Source: Candidatus Pyrohabitans jungbluthii (GTDB lineage Archaea; Hydrothermarchaeota; Hydrothermarchaeia; Hydrothermarchaeales; BMS3B). Taken from it: a stretch of 64,000 nt of DNA. Within the stretch, counting starts at the first letter, position 1. Every line of letters starts with the position of its first letter. Made by a program: the position numbers and the translations under genes. This document shows positions 1,827 through 53,557 of this stretch, piece by piece. The stretch spans positions 1 to 64,000 of the forward strand of contig MTMD02000008.1 in the NCBI GenBank assembly GCA_002010065.2, in the 5' to 3' direction. The notes below the pieces were generated by a model. It was not told the origin of the DNA. It did not search any database and saw only the letters and a program-made list of their open reading frames with translations.

Positions 1827-2864
1827 CTAATTTTTTATGCCAAAGAGGTAAACTCTTCCATCCCTGCTACCCACCGCAAGAGCGTTCCCATCGGTGGAGA
1901 ACTCCACGCTTGTTGGCTCCTGTACAAAGTCAAGCTGGGTGATTAAACGACCATCGTAGCTCAGCAGGTAAACCTTTTTATCCCAGGAGGCGAGAGCTAT
2001 TAGCTCGGGGTTCTCAGCTATTGCAACGTCATGGTTAGAGAACCCGCTTCTGAATTTCCACAGCAGCTTCCCATTTATGTCGTAAACGTAGAGCATCCTA
2101 TCCTGTGTGGCGCCTGCAACCAACTTAGATGAGAGAGCGCACCCGTAGATATAGCTCCCCCGTCCACCGCTCCTTTTCCATTTAAGCTTTCTGCTGGTGT
2201 CCAGAAGGTAAAGATAGGTGTCATCTCCTGCCAGCGCTACGTGCATGCCGTCTGTTGCGACGTCCCAAACCCCCCAGGCGCTATCCTGAGTTTCAAAAAT
2301 CCAACGTGGCTCGCCTTCGAGTGTGTACGCATAAGCCCTGCCATCGCCAGCAGCCACAACTACCAGGTTCGTCTCCTCTGAAATTGCCACCCCCTTTACT
2401 ATGTTCTGGAGCTTCTTCTCCCAGATTAAGCTTGCGTTACTGCTTGTTAGATTGAAAAGGTAGATTCTCGCCTCTGGCACGAGGTAGCTCGCCGCAACTA
2501 GGTAGTTCTCCCTTTCGCTCAGCGCCACCGCTTCAGCGTTTCCTCGCGTTTCAAACCTCCAGAGCAGAACGCCGCTCATGTTAAAAAGGTAAAGGTGGTT
2601 GTCGTAACTTGCGGCAGCCACGTAGCTTCTGCCTGCGTCCACCCCATAGACTGGCTCGCGGGTGTAGTAACTCCACAAAAGTGAAAGGTTTAGCCTATCC
2701 ACGCTTTCGTGAAGGGGTGGTGCATTCTCCTGCAGTGCTGGTGGCGTCGTCGTCGGAAGGGTATCGCCCTTAGCAGGTGGCGGTTCCTCAACCACCTCAC
2801 CACTTTCTTCAGCGATGCATGCTGAGAAGGCAAGGAGCATGAGAAGCAGGATAGCTCTTTCCAT
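1827..2864 (-). CDS. PQQ-like beta-propeller lipoprotein
   Basis: A 345-residue protein with a lipoprotein-type signal peptide: a hydrophobic run (LLLMLLAFSAC) places a lipobox cysteine at about residue 16, followed by an acidic, Pro-rich linker to about residue 50. The rest is a repeating propeller. Blades recur with the pattern YLFNMSG...LLWRFETRG, YLLDTSRKLKWKR, YVYDINGKLLWKF and YLLSYDGRL, typical of WD40/PQQ-like repeats. It is probably anchored outside the cell membrane. It is the last gene of a minus-strand cluster with two polymerase-like membrane proteins and a glycosyltransferase, starting two bases after its neighbour stops. No enzymatic function can be read from the repeats. Confidence 0.75.
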   Translation of the reverse strand: MERAILLLMLLAFSACIAEESGEVVEEPPPAKGDTLPTTTPPALQENAPPLHESVDRLNLSLLWSYYTREPVYGVDAGRSYVAAASYDNHLYLFNMSGVLLWRFETRGNAEAVALSERENYLVAASYLVPEARIYLFNLTSSNASLIWEKKLQNIVKGVAISEETNLVVVAAGDGRAYAYTLEGEPRWIFETQDSAWGVWDVATDGMHVALAGDDTYLYLLDTSRKLKWKRSGGRGSYIYGCALSSKLVAGATQDRMLYVYDINGKLLWKFRSGFSNHDVAIAENPELIALASWDKKVYLLSYDGRLITQLDFVQEPTSVEFSTDGNALAVGSRDGRVYLFGIKN

Positions 2865-2866
2865 TT

Positions 2867-4042
2867 TTATCTCACTTTTTCTACTCTGAGTGAGAGGTAG
2901 AGGAGGGTGAGCAGGAAAAGCACACTCGTTGGCTGAATTCCAACTTCTATTAGAATGAGCACATGGGTAAGGGCAACTGCATACACAGCGTTGCCCACGT
3001 TATTCTCAGCAAGGCGGTGCATAATGCCTAGGTACAATCCCACCAGCGAGGCGGTTATCATTAAGCCAATAATCCCAAAATCAAGCGTTGCAGGGCCGAA
3101 AAGCGTTGAGGTTATTATGTGCTCCTTTTCGTAGCCCAGTATTACCCTGCTTGTAATTACCTGGATAACGTCGGCGAGCGCAGCGCCGTGAAGCAAACCC
3201 CAGGGCAGAGAAAGCTCTACTATTCTGTCGAACACCGAGAAGGTGAAGCCGGCGCGGTAAAATATGTAGTAGTGGGGTGGAATCTTCCAGCTCGCGTAGG
3301 CAACGCTTGCTATGTGGGTGCTCACAAGGGTTAAGATTACTGCTATGCCCGCAAGCGCAGGTGCAACCCCACGAAGGCTCAGCCTGTCTGTAAGTAAACC
3401 TGCTATGGTTGCGCTCAGAATCACAGCAATGGCATCGCTCTTGAAGCCTGAGAGCACAGCGAGGATAACAAGAAAGAGGATGCCTAATATTGCGACTCTG
3501 CGTGCGGCGAGGGCGGCAAGCAGAGAGGCTGAGAGCACCGCAAGTCCATGAAAGACTGCACGCGCCGGCGATACCGCCATGCTCTCGCGGAAGCCTGCCT
3601 CAAGCAGTGGTATGCCGTGCAGGAGTGTTAGTGCCGCAGCAGCCACAGCGAGGGCGTAGGAACCAGCTATCAACGCAGGTACAGAGCCGAAGCGGGTGAA
3701 CAGGAGCCAGAAGGCGATGCTTCCAAGGGAGAGAGTGAGGTTGAAAACAAGCTGCTCCGGAAAGGTGGACTGCAGAGCGAAAAATGCGAGGGCAGCCATA
3801 ACCGGAAGGAGGTAGTCTGGATTCAATTTCACCTCAACCTTCTTCCCCAGTAGCGCAAAGGCGACGACGAGGGCGACGCCGAAGAGGCTCACAATGAAGC
3901 TCAAACTATGAAGGCTGCCGAATGCTTGGGCTAGGTACCTGCTGGTGACCTCTATCCTGTAGCCAAGATAGGCGCAGGCAAGGAAGATAAGGTAGACCGA
4001 GGGGAAGACGACCTCAGGATGAAGAATTCTCTTAACCCTCAT
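2867..4042 (-). CDS. polytopic membrane protein, oligosaccharide polymerase-like
   Basis: A 391-residue protein consisting almost entirely of hydrophobic helices, about ten to twelve by eye. Its C-terminal third (ITSTLFGPATLDFGIIGLM) is clearly related to TSTLLGTVSLDLGLAGIV in the 5071-6393 gene, so the two are paralogues. A late small loop followed by hydrophobic helices, beside a GT4 glycosyltransferase, is the usual setting of Wzy/O-antigen-type repeat unit polymerases. Polymerase activity is inferred from topology and context. The ATG overlaps the stop of the glycosyltransferase gene by four bases (ATGA), indicating tight coupling. Confidence 0.6.
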   Translation of the reverse strand: MRVKRILHPEVVFPSVYLIFLACAYLGYRIEVTSRYLAQAFGSLHSLSFIVSLFGVALVVAFALLGKKVEVKLNPDYLLPVMAALAFFALQSTFPEQLVFNLTLSLGSIAFWLLFTRFGSVPALIAGSYALAVAAAALTLLHGIPLLEAGFRESMAVSPARAVFHGLAVLSASLLAALAARRVAILGILFLVILAVLSGFKSDAIAVILSATIAGLLTDRLSLRGVAPALAGIAVILTLVSTHIASVAYASWKIPPHYYIFYRAGFTFSVFDRIVELSLPWGLLHGAALADVIQVITSRVILGYEKEHIITSTLFGPATLDFGIIGLMITASLVGLYLGIMHRLAENNVGNAVYAVALTHVLILIEVGIQPTSVLFLLTLLYLSLRVEKVR

Positions 4043-42884: not shown

Positions 42885-44039
42885 CTACCCATCCCACAGC
42901 GGCGAAATTTTCCGAAGCTTGGCAACAACGCCAGGGAACTTGCTGAGCACATACTCTATATCGCGCTTCGTGGTCTCTCTCCCCAAAGTGAATATCGCGC
43001 TGCACTGGGCGCGCTGCGATGGGTAGCCCATCGCGAGCAGAATCGGCGAAGCGCGGAGTACCTGAGAGATGCACGCGGTGCCATTGCCCATGTATATACC
43101 CTCAAAGCTCAGCGCCATCATTAACGCTTCGCCGTCTACGCTCTCTACGATAAAGCTTGCATGGTTGGGCAGCCTCTTCTCCGGGTGCCCCGTCAGCTCC
43201 ACCTTCTCAACTTCAAGCACGCCCTCTATCAGCTTGTCCCTCAACCAGCGAACCTTCTCCACCTTGTCGAGATGCCTTAGTGCAAGCTCTGCTGCCTTGC
43301 CGAAGCCAACTATGCCGGCGACATTCTCAGTGCCACCCCTGCGCCCCTCCTCCTGAATGCCGGAGTAGATAAGCGGGACTATGCGCAGCCCCTCACGAAG
43401 GTAGAGTGCTCCCACACCCTTGGGACCATACATGGTGTGGGCAGAGATCGAAAGAGCGTCCACGCCCAGCTCCTTAACATCTACAGGTATGTTCCCCGCC
43501 GCTGCCACGGCGTCGGTATGAACAAGAGCACCCTTCTCGTGGGCTATCTCGGCGATTTCCTTCACCGCCTGCAGCGTTCCAACTTCGTAATTGGCGAGCA
43601 TCACAGAAACAAGTGTGGTTCTATCGGTGATAGCACTTTCAAGCTTCTCAACACTCACCTCTCCATAGGAGTTGACTGGGAGAAAGGTTACCACGTAGCC
43701 CTCCTTCTGCAGGGAACGGAAAGCATTAAGCGTGGAGTGGTGCTCTATCTCAGAGGTTATAACGTGCATACCCTTATTCTGGTTCGCCTTTGCTAAGCCT
43801 CTAATTGCCAAGTTATTCGCCTCTGCCCCCGAAGAGGTAAATATGATCTCGTTGGGCGAGGCGTTTATCAGCCTTGCCACGCTCTCGCGAGCGCGCTCTA
43901 TCGCCTCCTTGGCTTCAGCTCCAAGGTCATACATCCTTGAAGGATTCCCAAAGCTATTCTCAAGGAAGGGCAGCATAGCTGCGAGTACTTCCCTGTCAAG
44001 AGGCGTTGTCGCCATATGGTCAAGATATACGCGAAACAT
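42885..44039 (-). CDS. NifS/IscS-family protein lacking the PLP lysine
   Basis: 384 residues, full length for class I cysteine desulfurases. GAEANNLAIRGLA, SEIEHHSTLNAF and VHTDAVAAAGNIPVDV are typical. At the PLP site, where the family has SAHKxxGPKG, this protein has SAHTMYGPKG: the Schiff-base lysine is Thr, checked in the nucleotide sequence at about 43430. The catalytic-loop cysteine remains in GNGTACISQVL. Without the lysine normal desulfurase chemistry is unlikely. Archaeoglobus IscS is known to lack the same lysine and was proposed to provide a cysteine ligand during cluster assembly. It starts one base after the TusA-like gene stops. Confidence 0.9.
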   Translation of the reverse strand: MFRVYLDHMATTPLDREVLAAMLPFLENSFGNPSRMYDLGAEAKEAIERARESVARLINASPNEIIFTSSGAEANNLAIRGLAKANQNKGMHVITSEIEHHSTLNAFRSLQKEGYVVTFLPVNSYGEVSVEKLESAITDRTTLVSVMLANYEVGTLQAVKEIAEIAHEKGALVHTDAVAAAGNIPVDVKELGVDALSISAHTMYGPKGVGALYLREGLRIVPLIYSGIQEEGRRGGTENVAGIVGFGKAAELALRHLDKVEKVRWLRDKLIEGVLEVEKVELTGHPEKRLPNHASFIVESVDGEALMMALSFEGIYMGNGTACISQVLRASPILLAMGYPSQRAQCSAIFTLGRETTKRDIEYVLSKFPGVVAKLRKISPLWDG

Positions 44040-44040
44040 C

Positions 44041-44334
44041 TCAATCTACCGTTTTCTTTATGTAGAACTTGAAGAATTCTCCCGTGTCCTCAACACCTAT
44101 GAGTTCATTCCCCGTCTTTCTGCACCAGTCAGGTATATCAGCGAGCGCGCCCTCGTAGTCGGTCTGAAGCTCCAGTATCTGCCCCTTCTTAAGCTCCTTC
44201 ATGCGCTCTTCCAGGCGCATGAGGTGCATGGGGCACATGCGATAAACAACGTCCTCAACGGCGTCCGCCACGATGCCCTCGACGAACTTTATCTCTGGCT
44301 GCTTCTGCTCTGTCATGTTTATGAAGTAGTACAT
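44041..44334 (-). CDS. TusA/SirA-like sulfur carrier protein
   Basis: 97 residues. MCPMHLMRLEERMKELKKGQ resembles the TusA helix with its active cysteine, but the CPxP motif is CPMH here. The C-terminal strands (ELIGVEDTGEFFKFYIKK) fit the same fold. The N-terminal 20 residues are extra. It lies directly before the NifS-like gene, so sulfur or persulfide handling is inferred. ATG 44334 is the first in frame; an ATG at 44316 would also give a family-like N-terminus. Confidence 0.7.
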   Translation of the reverse strand: MYYFINMTEQKQPEIKFVEGIVADAVEDVVYRMCPMHLMRLEERMKELKKGQILELQTDYEGALADIPDWCRKTGNELIGVEDTGEFFKFYIKKTVD

Positions 44335-44343
44335 TACCCTATT

Positions 44344-44495
44344 TTATCTTTTGCGTAATCTTACTCCACGCAGCACGACCTTAGCCACATGCAAGAGATG
44401 CTTTGTTGGCAGGCATCCAACGTTTATGCAGGTTCCGGCTAACCTTACAGCGGAGTTATTAACAGGCAGATCTCAGCCTCAAGCTCGTTTGCTTC
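44344..44495 (-). pseudogene. decayed mercuric-reductase-like flavoprotein fragment
   Basis: Just after the metallochaperone stop, one frame reads EANELEAEICLLITPL-stop and, one frame over, LAGTCINVGCLPTKHLLHVAKV before a stop at 44344. The second piece is the redox-active disulfide signature (GTCxNxGCxPTK) of pyridine nucleotide-disulfide oxidoreductases, closest by eye to MerA. A frameshift separates the two pieces; both the FAD-binding N-terminus and the rest of the enzyme are missing. Only some 50 codons remain. Confidence 0.75.
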
Positions 44496-45186
44496 ATTTC
44501 TTTTCCTCTTCTACACCCCTCGCACCGTAGCCAGCATCTCTCACAGCTTTAACGAACTTCTCCAAGCTTTCTTCCTCAGGTATTAGCATTTCAGCCTTTC
44601 CTTCGCTTAAGGAGACTTTCACATTTGTCGCCCCGGTGCTCTCCAGTGCGCCCTGAACAACGCCCACGCAGCCCTGGCAAGTCATTCCAGTAATCTCAAG
44701 CACAAGCCTTCTCAACTTCTGCTCCTTTGCCGCCTTCTTCTGCGCAGGCTTCACATTCGCCTCCCTGAGGTAGGAGTTTATTATGTCCTTCAGGTACCAC
44801 TCACAGCACCTTCCAGAGGGATTTGTGGTAATGCACCACTTGCCTTTGCCTGCGCCTGTTACCTCCTGCACTTCTTCTATGCTCGAGCAGCACCCCTCCT
44901 CGAGTATTGCCTTTCTCAGCATTTCATCTGTAACTCTATTGCAGTAGCACAGAGGCCTTGGCTCTGAATCTTCTTTAATCCCAACCCTGGTCTTAACCTC
45001 TGCCTTGGTGAGGTAGACCCCCGAGATGTTGTTGAAATACACCACATCGCATTCGCGGGAGGGGCAGAAGTAGAAATTCTCGTCTATCTTGCTCCAGTGC
45101 TCCTCCTTGACATGCACTCCCAGAGTTAGAGGCACAACCTTCATTCCCTCGCTACCGCAGTGTCTGCACACCTTTTCAGAACTCAT
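44494..45186 (-). CDS. CopZ-like metallochaperone ([2Fe-2S]/Zn domain plus HMA domain)
   Basis: 230 residues in two parts. Residues 1-140 hold paired cysteines CRHCGS, FCPSRECDVVYF, CYCNR, EEGCCSS and KWCITTNPSGRCC, matching the N-terminal [2Fe-2S]/zinc domain of Archaeoglobus CopZ. A linker leads to a heavy-metal-associated domain (about 160-225) with the metal site GMTCQGCVGVVQGAL. It should bind and transfer a soft metal such as Cu(I) or Hg(II). Its neighbours are an ArsR regulator upstream and a decayed MerA-like fragment downstream, so a former mercury or copper resistance unit is inferred. Confidence 0.88.
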   Translation of the reverse strand: MSSEKVCRHCGSEGMKVVPLTLGVHVKEEHWSKIDENFYFCPSRECDVVYFNNISGVYLTKAEVKTRVGIKEDSEPRPLCYCNRVTDEMLRKAILEEGCCSSIEEVQEVTGAGKGKWCITTNPSGRCCEWYLKDIINSYLREANVKPAQKKAAKEQKLRRLVLEITGMTCQGCVGVVQGALESTGATNVKVSLSEGKAEMLIPEEESLEKFVKAVRDAGYGARGVEEEKK

Positions 45187-45235: not shown

Positions 45236-45580
45236 TCATTCAACCATCACTTTAGCTATACCCTCCTCTCTCAGAATACCGCACTCCCTTAGCCAGGATT
45301 CGTAAAGCTGAATGTGGTTTTTAATCTTTGAAATCAGCTCTTTTATCTCGCCGTTGAGCCGGTATATCCGCCTCTTGCCGCGCCGCTCCACCTCCACAAA
45401 ACCGCAGTTTAGAAGACATCTCAAGTTGTGGGAAACTCTGCTCTGCTCATATCCCAGAGCGTCGCACAGCTCCAGCACAGACATCTCCCTTTCCATAAGC
45501 AGCATCACTATGTCAAAGCGCGTACGATTGGAGAGGACCCTTGCGAACAGTTTAAATGATTCATACATCATATGACGCAT
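45236..45580 (-). CDS. ArsR-family metal-responsive regulator
   Basis: 114 residues, a single winged helix. LSNRTRFDIVMLLMEREMSV, ELCDALGYEQSRVSHNLRCL and VERRGKRRIYRLN are typical of ArsR proteins. Cysteines at about residues 39, 55 and 59 and near 101 could form a metal site. It stands 49 bases upstream of the CopZ-like gene. Two direct repeats of ATCATAT lie around its start (near 45570-45590), a possible operator. ATG 45580 is taken; ATGs at 45571 and 45568 are also possible. Confidence 0.88.
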   Translation of the reverse strand: MRHMMYESFKLFARVLSNRTRFDIVMLLMEREMSVLELCDALGYEQSRVSHNLRCLLNCGFVEVERRGKRRIYRLNGEIKELISKIKNHIQLYESWLRECGILREEGIAKVMVE

Positions 45581-49426: not shown

Positions 49427-52400
49427 GTGACCATGGGAAAAAGGATTTCCAAGGTGAATCTGGCCTATATCACAACATTTATTTTATTTTGCGCATTTTT
49501 TACCGGCCTACCTTATTCTAATGCCCAGCCTCTCCCTTCAGAGCACAAAATCACAAAAAACCTTGCTGAAAAGGTCAATTCCGTTCCTCCTCAAGAAAAG
49601 GTCAGGGTCATTATAATCCTCAAAAAACCAGCGGGGCAGTTCCAAGCTCAAGCCGCTAGGAGTTTGGCAAAAAAGGATATACTGGAGAAGGGAGGGGAGG
49701 TCATAAGGGATTTTTCAATCTTTGAGGGCATGGCCGCAGAGATTCCGGCTTCTAGGGTAGAGGCACTGGCGAATAATCCCAATGTGGAATTAATTGTGGA
49801 GGATAGGCAAGTCAAAGCCTTCCTGACAGAAAGTGTCCCATTAATTAATGCGGATGATGTTTGGAACAAAATTCTGTCCGGGACCAATATAACAGGAAGA
49901 GGTCAGACGGTCTGCGTCATTGACACAGGTGTGGATTATACTCACCCTGATTTGGGGGGAGGCATGGGCATAGGCTTCAAAGTTCTGGGGGGATACGACT
50001 TCGTAAACAACGATAATGACCCGATTGACGATAATGGACACGGCACCCATGTGGCAGGGACTATTGCTGCAAATGGTAATTTAAAAGGAGTGGCACCTGA
50101 TGCGAACATAATTGCTATAAAGGTCTTGAATGCCTCAGGGTTTGGCTCTACGATAGATGTTCTGGCCGGAATAGATTGGTGCGTAAGCAATGCGAGCATT
50201 TATAATATAACAGTAATCAGCATGAGCCTTGGTGGCGACCTTTACACTTCATACTGCGATGATGAACTACTGGAGATCCCGTTCAGGGATGCCATTAACG
50301 CAGCGGTGGCAAGAAACATCACCGTTGTTATTGCCACAGGGAATGATGCCAATTATACTGCCATTTCCTCCCCCGCCTGTATCAAGAACGCCACAAGGGT
50401 GGGGGCTACTTATGATAGTAATATCGGTAGTCTAATAACTTGGGGTGACCCACCTATATGTACTGATACCACAACCTCTACCGATAAAATCACCTGCTTC
50501 ACCAATCGGGGGGCTAACTTTCCAGATATCCTTTTGGCACCGGGTGCTCTAACGAATTCAACTTATCTATCTAATGGATACGAAGAATTAGGCGGCACCT
50601 CAATGGCCACACCCCATGTCTCAGGTCTTATTGCACTTCTAAATCAGGAGTACAGGGCAATTTATGGCACAAATCCAACGCCAGATTATCTCTTCCATGT
50701 ACTGAACTCCACGGGAGTGCCAATCTACGACAATGCAACTGGAATGACATATTACAGAGTGGATGCCCTCACCGCCTACAACGCGATTGATCAGGTGCCG
50801 CCTGCAATAACCTTTGTTTTCCCAACTCCAGAAAACGCCACCCTTTGGGGCAAAACCTGGATTTATATCAATGTCACATTTTCTGAAAATGTGGACACAG
50901 CCATACTAGATTGGAACGGTACAAACTATACAATGCAAATGCTTGGAAGCACGGTTGCTTATTACAACGTCACAAACCTTTCCGAAGGTGATTACATCTA
51001 CATGGTATATGCAAACGACACCTCTGGTAATATGAATGTTTCTGAGACGAGGGTAATTACAGTTGACTTAACTCCACCTACAATAACCTTCGTAGCTCCT
51101 ACACCTGCCAACACCACCTCTGTGAACGTAAGCTATGTCTTTGTGAATATAACAGCATCTGAAATATTAAATCGCTCAATCCTTGAGTGGAACGGCACAA
51201 ATGAGACGATGCAGGGCTCAGGGTTAAACTGGTATCTGAATAAAACATACCTGCTCAACGGGAATTACACCTTCAGAGTGCATACTCAGGATTTAGCCGG
51301 GAACTGGAACTCCAGTGAAATAAGGGTGGTTGGGGTAGACGCCCCCCTTTTAATAAGCATAGAGTCGCCACTCAACAGAAGCTATCCCTCGCAGAATGTG
51401 CATTTCAACATAACTGCCAATAAACCTCTGGGAAGTGCTCTGGTTTCTATAGACGGCGGAGGCAATCACACACTAACCAACGACTCTATAATCCACTGGT
51501 ATAACACTTCGATATTTATAGCCGAAGGTCCGCATAACGCAACATTTTACGTTCAGGACCTCACGGGCGATGTCAACTCCTCAACTGTTTACTTCACAGT
51601 GGATGTAACCCCGCCAAATGTAAGCTTCATTGACCCCACACCGCCGCCTTATTACAACTCTTCCACACACAACATAACCATAAATGTCAGCCACGCGGAG
51701 CTTTATCCTGATACACTGATACTGAGCTGGAACGGTACCAACATCTCACAGGCATACAGCGGCAGCTACACCAACATCACCTTTGACAATCTCACGGACG
51801 GACGCTACTTCTACTACGTTTGGGTGAACGACACCGCAGGCAACTGGAACAGCACCGAGGTAAGGGTTGTTACCATAGACACCTCTCCTCCCGAGATAAT
51901 CAACATCACACCCGCCATCGGCTCCGGCGTTAAGGGCGTGGTAACAATAAGCGTGGTCGCTCGTGACGCTGGCGTAGGCGTCGCCTCTGTTGTTGCGGAA
52001 GTGTCGAACGCCACCTACTCGGAGGTGCTAACACTAATCAACAACGGCTCTGACGTGTGGTACAACGATACCTGGAACACCTCCGCATTGGCTGAGGGCG
52101 AGTACAACATAACCATCAATGCAACCGACTTACTTGGACAGAGCAACGCCAGTGAGTACGTCACGGTAATCGTGGACAGGACGCCTCCGGCATCGCTTGT
52201 GCTTTCCCCAATACCCAACAAGAACATCTCCACTACTGTGTACACCATCAACGGCACAGCGATAGACAATGAAAGCGGCGTGGCACGAGTATGGGTAAGC
52301 GTGGACGGCGGCTCAACCTGGGCGCTGGCAAATGGCACCCTAAACTGGAGCTACGAATGGAATATTCTGAGCGACGGCGGGTACAACATCACCAGCAAGG

Positions 52401-53557
52401 CAGAAGACAAAGCGGGTAACAACCAGACAACGCTTCAGTATGTGCCCGTCACTGTGGACGCAACACCACCCTCAATAACCCTCCTCCCTCCAACCCCTGG
52501 TGATGGTGACACGCTGAGCGCCGGCACAACCAGCGTCACCATAAACATCTCCATCAACGAAGCGCATCCTGCAACGTTAATATTAAGCTGGAATAACGTT
52601 AATCAGAGCTTCAACTACTCTTCCGGCTATGTGAGCATAACTAAAAGCGTTTCCAGCGGAAACAGCTACACCTTCTATGTCTGGGCAAACGACACCTTTG
52701 GCAATGCCAACGCCACGCCAAAGATAACCTTCTCCGTTGCCTCAAGCGGTGATAGCGGCGGCGGAGGTGGCGGGGGCAGAGGCGCAAGAGCGTGCAATGT
52801 TGCTGAGATTGAAAAGGTGTTCAAAGGTGAGAGTGCAACTGCAACCTTCGATGAGGAGTGTGTACCTGACATAAAGAACATAACCATCTTTGCTTCGCAG
52901 ACTCACTACTATACCACCATATACGTGGAGAGCTACAAGACAAAACCCGCGTGGGTGGTCTTTCCCGAGCCGTCGCAGGCGGTGTACAGGTACTTCAAGA
53001 TAAGGTATGAAAAGCCCAACACCTACATCACAAAGGCTGAGATAGTGTTTAAGGTGGGCAAAGCCTGGCTCATGGAGAAGGACATAAATCCCAATACCGT
53101 AGCGATGCTCAGATATGATAAGCGCTGGGAGGAGCTTGAGACGCAGCTTGTTGGCGAGGAGGAGGGTTACCTCCTGTACAGAGCCATTACACCTGGGTTT
53201 TCCTACTTCGCCGTGGTTGGAGAGGAAGGCTCGGGATTCAGCATCGAAGAAGAGGAGAAAGGGCAGAAGGAAGAGGAAGTTAAAGATGTTGAGGAGTTTG
53301 AGGAGTTAGCGCAGATTATGAGCCTCCTAGCAAAGAATGAGACGGTGGAAAAAACTGTAGAGAAAGGCAAATCGGAGGAGGCGCCTGAGAAAACGGAAGC
53401 AAATGTTACCGAAGAGGCAAAGCGGGTGGAAGAGAATGTTTCTGAGGCTGAGGAGACGGCAGAGGAAGAAAAAGGCATCTGCGGTCCCACGTCAGCGCTC
53501 CTTATAGCCCTGCTCTCCGCATTGGCAATAAAAGGGCTTACTCGCCCCTACCGTTGA
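49427..53557 (+). CDS. large secreted subtilisin-like protease with CGP-type C-terminus
   Basis: 1376 residues. A signal peptide ends near residue 34 (SNAQ). An I9-type propeptide (about 55-130) precedes the S8 domain with Asp in VCVIDTGVDYTHPDL (about 166), His in GHGTHVAGTI (about 204) and Ser in GGTSMATPHVSGL (about 391). Six or seven Ig-like modules of about 100 residues follow, rich in N-glycosylation sequons (NGT, NIT). After a Gly-rich linker near 1110 comes a PGF-pre-PGF-like domain, then a charged segment and a C-terminal helix starting ICGPTSALLIALLSA. It is likely surface-anchored and degrades extracellular protein. The end overlaps the convergent RNA ligase by 20 bases. GTG 49427 or ATG 49433 starts it. 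Confidence 0.92.
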   Translation: MTMGKRISKVNLAYITTFILFCAFFTGLPYSNAQPLPSEHKITKNLAEKVNSVPPQEKVRVIIILKKPAGQFQAQAARSLAKKDILEKGGEVIRDFSIFEGMAAEIPASRVEALANNPNVELIVEDRQVKAFLTESVPLINADDVWNKILSGTNITGRGQTVCVIDTGVDYTHPDLGGGMGIGFKVLGGYDFVNNDNDPIDDNGHGTHVAGTIAANGNLKGVAPDANIIAIKVLNASGFGSTIDVLAGIDWCVSNASIYNITVISMSLGGDLYTSYCDDELLEIPFRDAINAAVARNITVVIATGNDANYTAISSPACIKNATRVGATYDSNIGSLITWGDPPICTDTTTSTDKITCFTNRGANFPDILLAPGALTNSTYLSNGYEELGGTSMATPHVSGLIALLNQEYRAIYGTNPTPDYLFHVLNSTGVPIYDNATGMTYYRVDALTAYNAIDQVPPAITFVFPTPENATLWGKTWIYINVTFSENVDTAILDWNGTNYTMQMLGSTVAYYNVTNLSEGDYIYMVYANDTSGNMNVSETRVITVDLTPPTITFVAPTPANTTSVNVSYVFVNITASEILNRSILEWNGTNETMQGSGLNWYLNKTYLLNGNYTFRVHTQDLAGNWNSSEIRVVGVDAPLLISIESPLNRSYPSQNVHFNITANKPLGSALVSIDGGGNHTLTNDSIIHWYNTSIFIAEGPHNATFYVQDLTGDVNSSTVYFTVDVTPPNVSFIDPTPPPYYNSSTHNITINVSHAELYPDTLILSWNGTNISQAYSGSYTNITFDNLTDGRYFYYVWVNDTAGNWNSTEVRVVTIDTSPPEIINITPAIGSGVKGVVTISVVARDAGVGVASVVAEVSNATYSEVLTLINNGSDVWYNDTWNTSALAEGEYNITINATDLLGQSNASEYVTVIVDRTPPASLVLSPIPNKNISTTVYTINGTAIDNESGVARVWVSVDGGSTWALANGTLNWSYEWNILSDGGYNITSKAEDKAGNNQTTLQYVPVTVDATPPSITLLPPTPGDGDTLSAGTTSVTINISINEAHPATLILSWNNVNQSFNYSSGYVSITKSVSSGNSYTFYVWANDTFGNANATPKITFSVASSGDSGGGGGGGRGARACNVAEIEKVFKGESATATFDEECVPDIKNITIFASQTHYYTTIYVESYKTKPAWVVFPEPSQAVYRYFKIRYEKPNTYITKAEIVFKVGKAWLMEKDINPNTVAMLRYDKRWEELETQLVGEEEGYLLYRAITPGFSYFAVVGEEGSGFSIEEEEKGQKEEEVKDVEEFEELAQIMSLLAKNETVEKTVEKGKSEEAPEKTEANVTEEAKRVEENVSEAEETAEEEKGICGPTSALLIALLSALAIKGLTRPYR

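Follow-up and report, generated by a model that had tools for sequence, protein, structure and literature searches.

Gene Pair at the Locus and Its Conservation

Within the window (the whole stretch of 64,000 nucleotides that was analysed), a TusA-like gene is followed on the minus strand by a NifS-like gene, with the following features:

44041..44334 (-), TusA-like protein of 97 aa with CPMH for CPxP; open reading frame, PF01206 with E=1.8e-18
44233..44235 (-), C34 of the TusA-like protein (in CPMH), candidate sulfur-carrying cysteine
44040..44040 (-), single base separating the TusA stop codon from the NifS start codon
42885..44039 (-), Lys-less NifS/IscS-like protein of 384 aa, T-type; open reading frame, PF00266 with E=2.2e-80
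43434..43436 (-), ACC codon of T202, at the position of the PLP lysine (K206 in E. coli IscS) by alignment
43071..43073 (-), TGC codon of C323, the mobile-loop cysteine (E. coli C328); loop 322-326 is predicted to be flexible

Given the spacing of 1 nt, the TusA-like gene upstream and the NifS-like gene downstream are likely to form a co-translated pair. Their Pfam domains are TusA and Aminotran_5, respectively, and the NifS-like protein matches the curated NifS and IscS families over its full length at scores below their cut-offs (TIGR03402, 475.8 bits against 530.75; TIGR02006, 366.4 bits against 643.2). The original prediction had read threonine in place of the PLP lysine (SAHTMYGPKG, codon ACC), a retained mobile-loop cysteine and CPMH in the adjoining TusA-like protein, and all three were confirmed. 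All intact orthologues identified in the phylum have threonine at the lysine site (54-95% identity), while CPMH, including C34, is invariant in 12 aligned TusA orthologues. Strong purifying selection acts on the two genes, with dN/dS between the window and its relatives of 0.03-0.08 for NifS and 0.01-0.02 for TusA. Since all intact orthologues share the same threonine and dN/dS is low, a sequencing error or chance change at the lysine codon could be ruled out, and intact reading frames together with selection likewise ruled out a pseudogene.

Upstream of the pair, the window encodes a CopZ-like protein with zf_CopZ, 2Fe-2S and HMA domains (44494-45186, minus strand) and an adjacent ArsR-type regulator (45236-45580, minus strand). 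A 1376-aa protein at 49427-53557 (plus strand) resembles, as judged by eye alone, a secreted subtilisin-type protease with repeated domains.

Active Site and Fold of the NifS-Like Protein

E. coli IscS, whose sequence was checked to be identical to 1p3w, served as the residue ruler. In the alignment with this protein and the Archaeoglobus fulgidus structure sequence, T202 falls in the K206 column, and no nearby lysine could replace the PLP lysine, the lysine of GPKG being common to the whole family; the proposed check of the lysine column thus upheld the loss. In E. coli numbering, the window protein has A76, H104, Y155, D180, A183, S203, H205, T206, T243, C328 and I354, so that N155, Q183, K206 and R354 of E. 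coli are replaced by Y, A, T and I. Among the features of a desulfurase, it lacks the PLP lysine, R354 for the substrate carboxylate, the PLP contacts N155 and Q183 and a score above the curated cut-offs, and it has the catalytic cysteine of the mobile loop (C323).

The same pattern extends across a set of 216 different IscS/NifS sequences taken from the loci. Of the 110 Lys-bearing proteins, 109 have N155, 102 have Q183 and 109 have R354. The 106 Lys-less proteins have these residues in 8, 0 and 1 cases, respectively; all of them keep C328 and D180, and 104 keep H104. The PLP and substrate site is therefore lost as a set, comprising the Schiff-base lysine, the carboxylate arginine and the PLP-contact residues together. 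This joint loss, with C328 kept, indicates that the chemistry has very probably gone from the window protein, which retains the fold and the loop cysteine, and we infer from its sequence that it is not a functioning PLP cysteine desulfurase. Its AlphaFold2 model has the IscS fold with a mean pLDDT of 91.9, the cysteine loop 322-326 being the only very low-confidence stretch, and the best structural matches are human NFS1 complexes and the A. fulgidus IscS-IscU structure 4eb5 (TM ~0.96). Since D180 and most of H104/H205, which are PLP contacts, are retained, Lys-less NifS may still bind PLP non-covalently; the retention of D180 and H104 has no explanation if PLP never binds.

Archaeal Relatives and the Window's Own Genome

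The TusA(CPMH)-NifS pair occurs in 11 of the 23 genomes of the window's phylum, and the named near relatives of the window include two Candidatus Hydrothermarchaeota genomes; in one genome (G009) the NifS copy of the pair has two stops in frame. Among the 394 archaea sampled, no further genome has TusA with CPMH, the scores falling from 150 to 83 bits. Three genomes (G020-G022) have an IscU-type gene directly upstream of the pair, in the order IscU-TusA-NifS, and a domain scan of the G022 protein found NifU_N and FeS_assembly_P. The FeS_assembly_P (MIP18-like) domain of this protein (locus L127, 1757-2365) is C-terminal, with similar proteins in G020 and G021, and the TusA of all three genomes ends with a cysteine-bearing tail (RSRCDYxCxR). 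G021 has a second Lys-less NifS (SSNLIHGPKG) after the pair, a type that G020 and G022 hold elsewhere (SSTL, SSCL). These Leu-type genes (L396, 2551-3699, in G020; L397, 2511-3659, in G022; L042, 2864-4006, in G021), with SSTL, SSCL or SSNL before IHGPKG, have also lost His205 and kept the loop cysteine in GSACY; R354 is kept in G021. At E<=1e-40, no Lys-bearing IscS/SufS-like match was found in G020-G022 or in four genomes of family f16.

The pair has no IscU next to it in the family to which the window belongs. The search for a second, Lys-containing desulfurase and IscU that the original prediction had proposed was successful, as the window's genome contains a canonical Lys-bearing IscS elsewhere (SAHKMYGPKG; 49-50% identical to the window NifS) with two IscU-like genes downstream, and also a SufS-like protein. 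A SufB/D core was not found in this genome, and the positive control matched in all 14 genomes searched. The presence of these Lys-bearing IscS, IscU-like and SufS-like proteins means that the window pair is not a simple replacement for the desulfurase in its own genome. Upstream of the canonical IscS lie two further genes, one for a second TusA (CPVP) and one for a third NifS-like protein, which has arginine at the lysine site. The gene order at this locus (G000:C2, L002) is Arg-type NifS (2824-3993; SAHRFYGPKG, loop GSPCMA), TusA with CPVP (2597-2827), canonical IscS and IscU. The TusA of the Arg-type operon has CPAH or CPVH in G008 and G009, a second case of CPxH. The canonical IscS of the window's family (L002, 1384-2595, and family members) has isoleucine for Q183, a residue that other Lys-bearing IscS proteins almost always keep; in all, isoleucine stands there in 8 of the 110 Lys-bearing proteins.

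Bacterial Operons with the Same Pair

A scan of one-genome-per-species contigs found CPMH-TusA with a Gln-bearing NifS in bacterium BMS3Bbin05, which is placed by NCBI in unclassified Bacteria and which may belong to Nitrospirota. At least ~30 of 148 genomes of its phylum, among the matches listed, contain CPMH-TusA, with a drop in score from 128 to 88 bits. When the sampling of its relatives was widened, ~164 of 396 genomes had the motif protein, a figure obtained from 182 genomes matching at E<=1e-20 by subtracting the 18 weakest (E>=1e-25), which resemble ordinary TusA. Among these relatives 80 loci were read, a few of them representing the same gene fetched twice, and the NifS gene is present in 77, with glutamine at the lysine site in 70, glutamate in 4, methionine, isoleucine and leucine in 1 each, and lysine in none; in the other three loci NifS is cut off, unread or lost. 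The operon has the order Rrf2-TusA(CPMH)-NifS(Q/E/M/I/L)-IscU. The best NCBIfam match of its Rrf2 regulator is IscR at 132.6 bits, below the cut-off of 207.55, and the regulator is therefore termed IscR-like. The window NifS is 53-60% identical to these bacterial orthologues, and some of the bacteria (e.g., G394, G478, G521, and G504) have Lys-bearing NifS-type genes elsewhere.

Two further observations concern these loci. In G474 (L415) a decayed copy of the operon has shortened Rrf2 and TusA genes and no NifS beside them, and the Gln-type NifS of loci L207-L306 often has a cysteine-bearing C-terminal tail (such as ...GGxCTxKK). The BMS3B sulfide deposit has been a source of Hydrothermarchaeota genomes too (PMC6759336), so that gene transfer between co-inhabitants may have taken place.

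TusA Adjacency and Phylogeny of the Lysine Loss

Adjacency to TusA (same strand, within 600 bp) was counted for genes flanked by >=600 bp at each end; bacterial loci found through TusA did not enter the count. On this count, TusA stands beside 28 of 29 Lys-less NifS/IscS genes versus 3 of 96 Lys-bearing ones. The three exceptions among the latter are the canonical IscS genes of the window's family, whose TusA is shared with the Arg-type gene. Among the counted Lys-less genes, only the second gene of L042, which is Leu-type, stands without TusA. TusA is also missing beside a His-type gene of G005, whose flank is too short for the count. A contingency table for the whole set (68/69 Lys-less vs. 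4/99) was set aside as biased, because its bacterial loci had been fetched via TusA. In the D-type group, which holds A. fulgidus IscS in the tree, the D-type loci examined have the order TusA-NifS-IscU, the A. fulgidus locus itself lying outside the set. Lys-less NifS is thus coupled to TusA in general, which goes beyond what was originally proposed.

The tree requires 3 changes between Lys and not-Lys. The free tree separates a T/Q/R clade from a D/S clade, and constraining these groups to one clade was not rejected (p-AU 0.578). Many independent losses of the lysine are therefore not supported by the tree, and few independent events lie behind the link with TusA.

Possible Role of the Pair

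IscS is the textbook sulfur source of ISC assembly. With moderate confidence, we suggest that the pair could be a sulfur-relay and scaffold module for Fe-S cluster assembly without cysteine cutting. The TusA-like protein would carry persulfide sulfur on the CPMH cysteine to the NifS platform, whose C323 would then pass the sulfur to an IscU-type scaffold or hold the nascent cluster on the scaffold. Possible first donors of this sulfur are sulfide (the source named in the original prediction), another sulfurtransferase and a separate desulfurase of the Lys-bearing kind. A flow of sulfur from TusA to a dead IscS platform is hypothetical here, since TusA in E. coli is the acceptor of sulfur from IscS and not its donor. 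The original prediction had assigned both genes to a non-canonical Fe-S assembly route. This assignment gains support from the IscU-type scaffold adjoining the pair in archaeal and bacterial relatives and from the joint loss of the active-site residues, but the Lys-bearing IscS kept in the same genome weighs against it. Given that canonical IscS elsewhere, and since the pair of the window's family lacks an adjoining IscU, the target of the window pair may be special or not Fe-S. More tentatively, our results raise the possibility of a widespread desulfurase-free ISC route, in which the IscS of ISC operons would be PLP-free in whole archaeal lineages and many bacteria and TusA would feed IscU with sulfur derived ultimately from sulfide or sulfane sulfur.

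The Lys-less protein could instead be a scaffold that only lends its loop cysteine as a ligand to the IscU cluster, with no sulfur transfer and with TusA as a separate regulator or competitor, as has been proposed for A. fulgidus IscS (IscS-IscU precedent, PMC7585200); the fold and loop cysteine are the same and the cysteine column is invariant. However, such a role would not need TusA, and a member of this IscS-docking sulfur carrier family stands beside nearly every Lys-less gene, including those of the A. fulgidus-like D-type relatives, so that we regard this reading as unlikely. It is more doubtful still that the pair delivers sulfur outside Fe-S assembly (e.g., for tRNA thiolation or the molybdenum cofactor) or works as a decoy that binds TusA/IscU to tune canonical IscS. 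The window's family, without IscU beside the pair and with canonical IscS in the same genome, would agree with this, but the bacterial operons contain IscU and IscR-like Rrf2, and G020-G022 have IscU next to the pair and no canonical IscS to be tuned.

Some fold-type I sugar enzymes use PMP without a lysine, and the fact that Lys-less proteins always keep D180 and nearly always H104 could point to an enzyme that remains catalytic, acting on some substrate other than cysteine with PLP or PMP and no Schiff-base lysine. Nevertheless, these proteins have also lost R354, N155 and Q183, and the residue at the lysine site is free to vary (T, Q, E, M, I, L), which renders continued catalysis quite improbable. 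The sulfur-relay and scaffold module remains the reading that we favour.

Lys-less IscS as such is already known. What seems to be new in the literature searched is the tie of the Lys-less class to TusA, the T/Q clade, the CPMH motif and the bacterial operon. At the level of titles and abstracts, with most subscription papers outside its scope, the search returned no paper that links Lys-less IscS with TusA, and nothing relevant was found for 'pseudoenzyme' with 'cysteine desulfurase'. A. fulgidus IscS had looked an oddity. In the present data, proteins of the Lys-less IscS/NifS kind make up large conserved groups, both among archaea and within a bacterial phylum. TusA is the gene regularly found next to theirs, and the bacterial genes lie in an ISC-like operon. 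The occurrence of the same pair in a deep-sea archaeon and in many bacterial Fe-S operons suggests that cluster building without cysteine cutting at the IscS/NifS step could be widespread, providing a testable answer to how anaerobes living where sulfide is plentiful supply IscU with sulfur. Caution is also due with annotations, since many of the genes labelled cysteine desulfurase probably cannot encode such an enzyme.

Comparison with Known Systems

The precedent named in the original prediction is real: A. fulgidus IscS is cited in PMC7585200 as being without desulfurase activity and as giving a cysteine ligand to the [2Fe-2S] cluster on IscU. The window protein resembles it (PDB 4eb5, 4eb7, 4hvk; D199) in the IscS fold, the replaced PLP lysine and the retained loop cysteine, and Q183 and the substrate arginine are changed in both (to A and L in A. 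fulgidus). It differs in having SAH-T and Y at 155 where A. fulgidus has Asp in SSN-D and keeps N155, and thus lacks these two marks of the A. fulgidus type. The two proteins also lie in different clades of the free tree (a common clade was not rejected), and the D-type relatives of A. fulgidus IscS have TusA with CPxP rather than CPMH. An IscU partner, as in the A. fulgidus type, adjoins in G020-G022 and the bacterial orthologues and not in the window's family. The available part of PMC7585200 does not mention TusA coupling.

With the NifS/IscS desulfurases (E. coli IscS, TIGR03402/TIGR02006), the window protein shares fold, length, mobile-loop cysteine, D180 and H104, but it lacks K206, N155, Q183 and R354 and falls below the curated cut-offs. 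The window TusA-like protein has the PF01206 domain and the conserved active-site cysteine of E. coli TusA, which docks on IscS (TusA-IscS complex 3lvj), and differs in its CPMH for CPxP, its extended N-terminus and its regular Lys-less NifS neighbour. In E. coli, IscS is a docking site for both TusA and IscU, which compete for binding (PMC11302665), and H2S/sulfide can feed IscU without IscS (PMC13015791). The SMS scaffold is likewise supplied by sulfide, and the minimal ISC system (MIS: IscS+IscU) of anaerobic prokaryotes has been described with a working desulfurase (PMC12192291). The genes studied here resemble MIS as a NifS-like and IscU gene pair without carriers, and depart from it in having TusA as an additional member and a NifS-like protein that has lost its desulfurase site.
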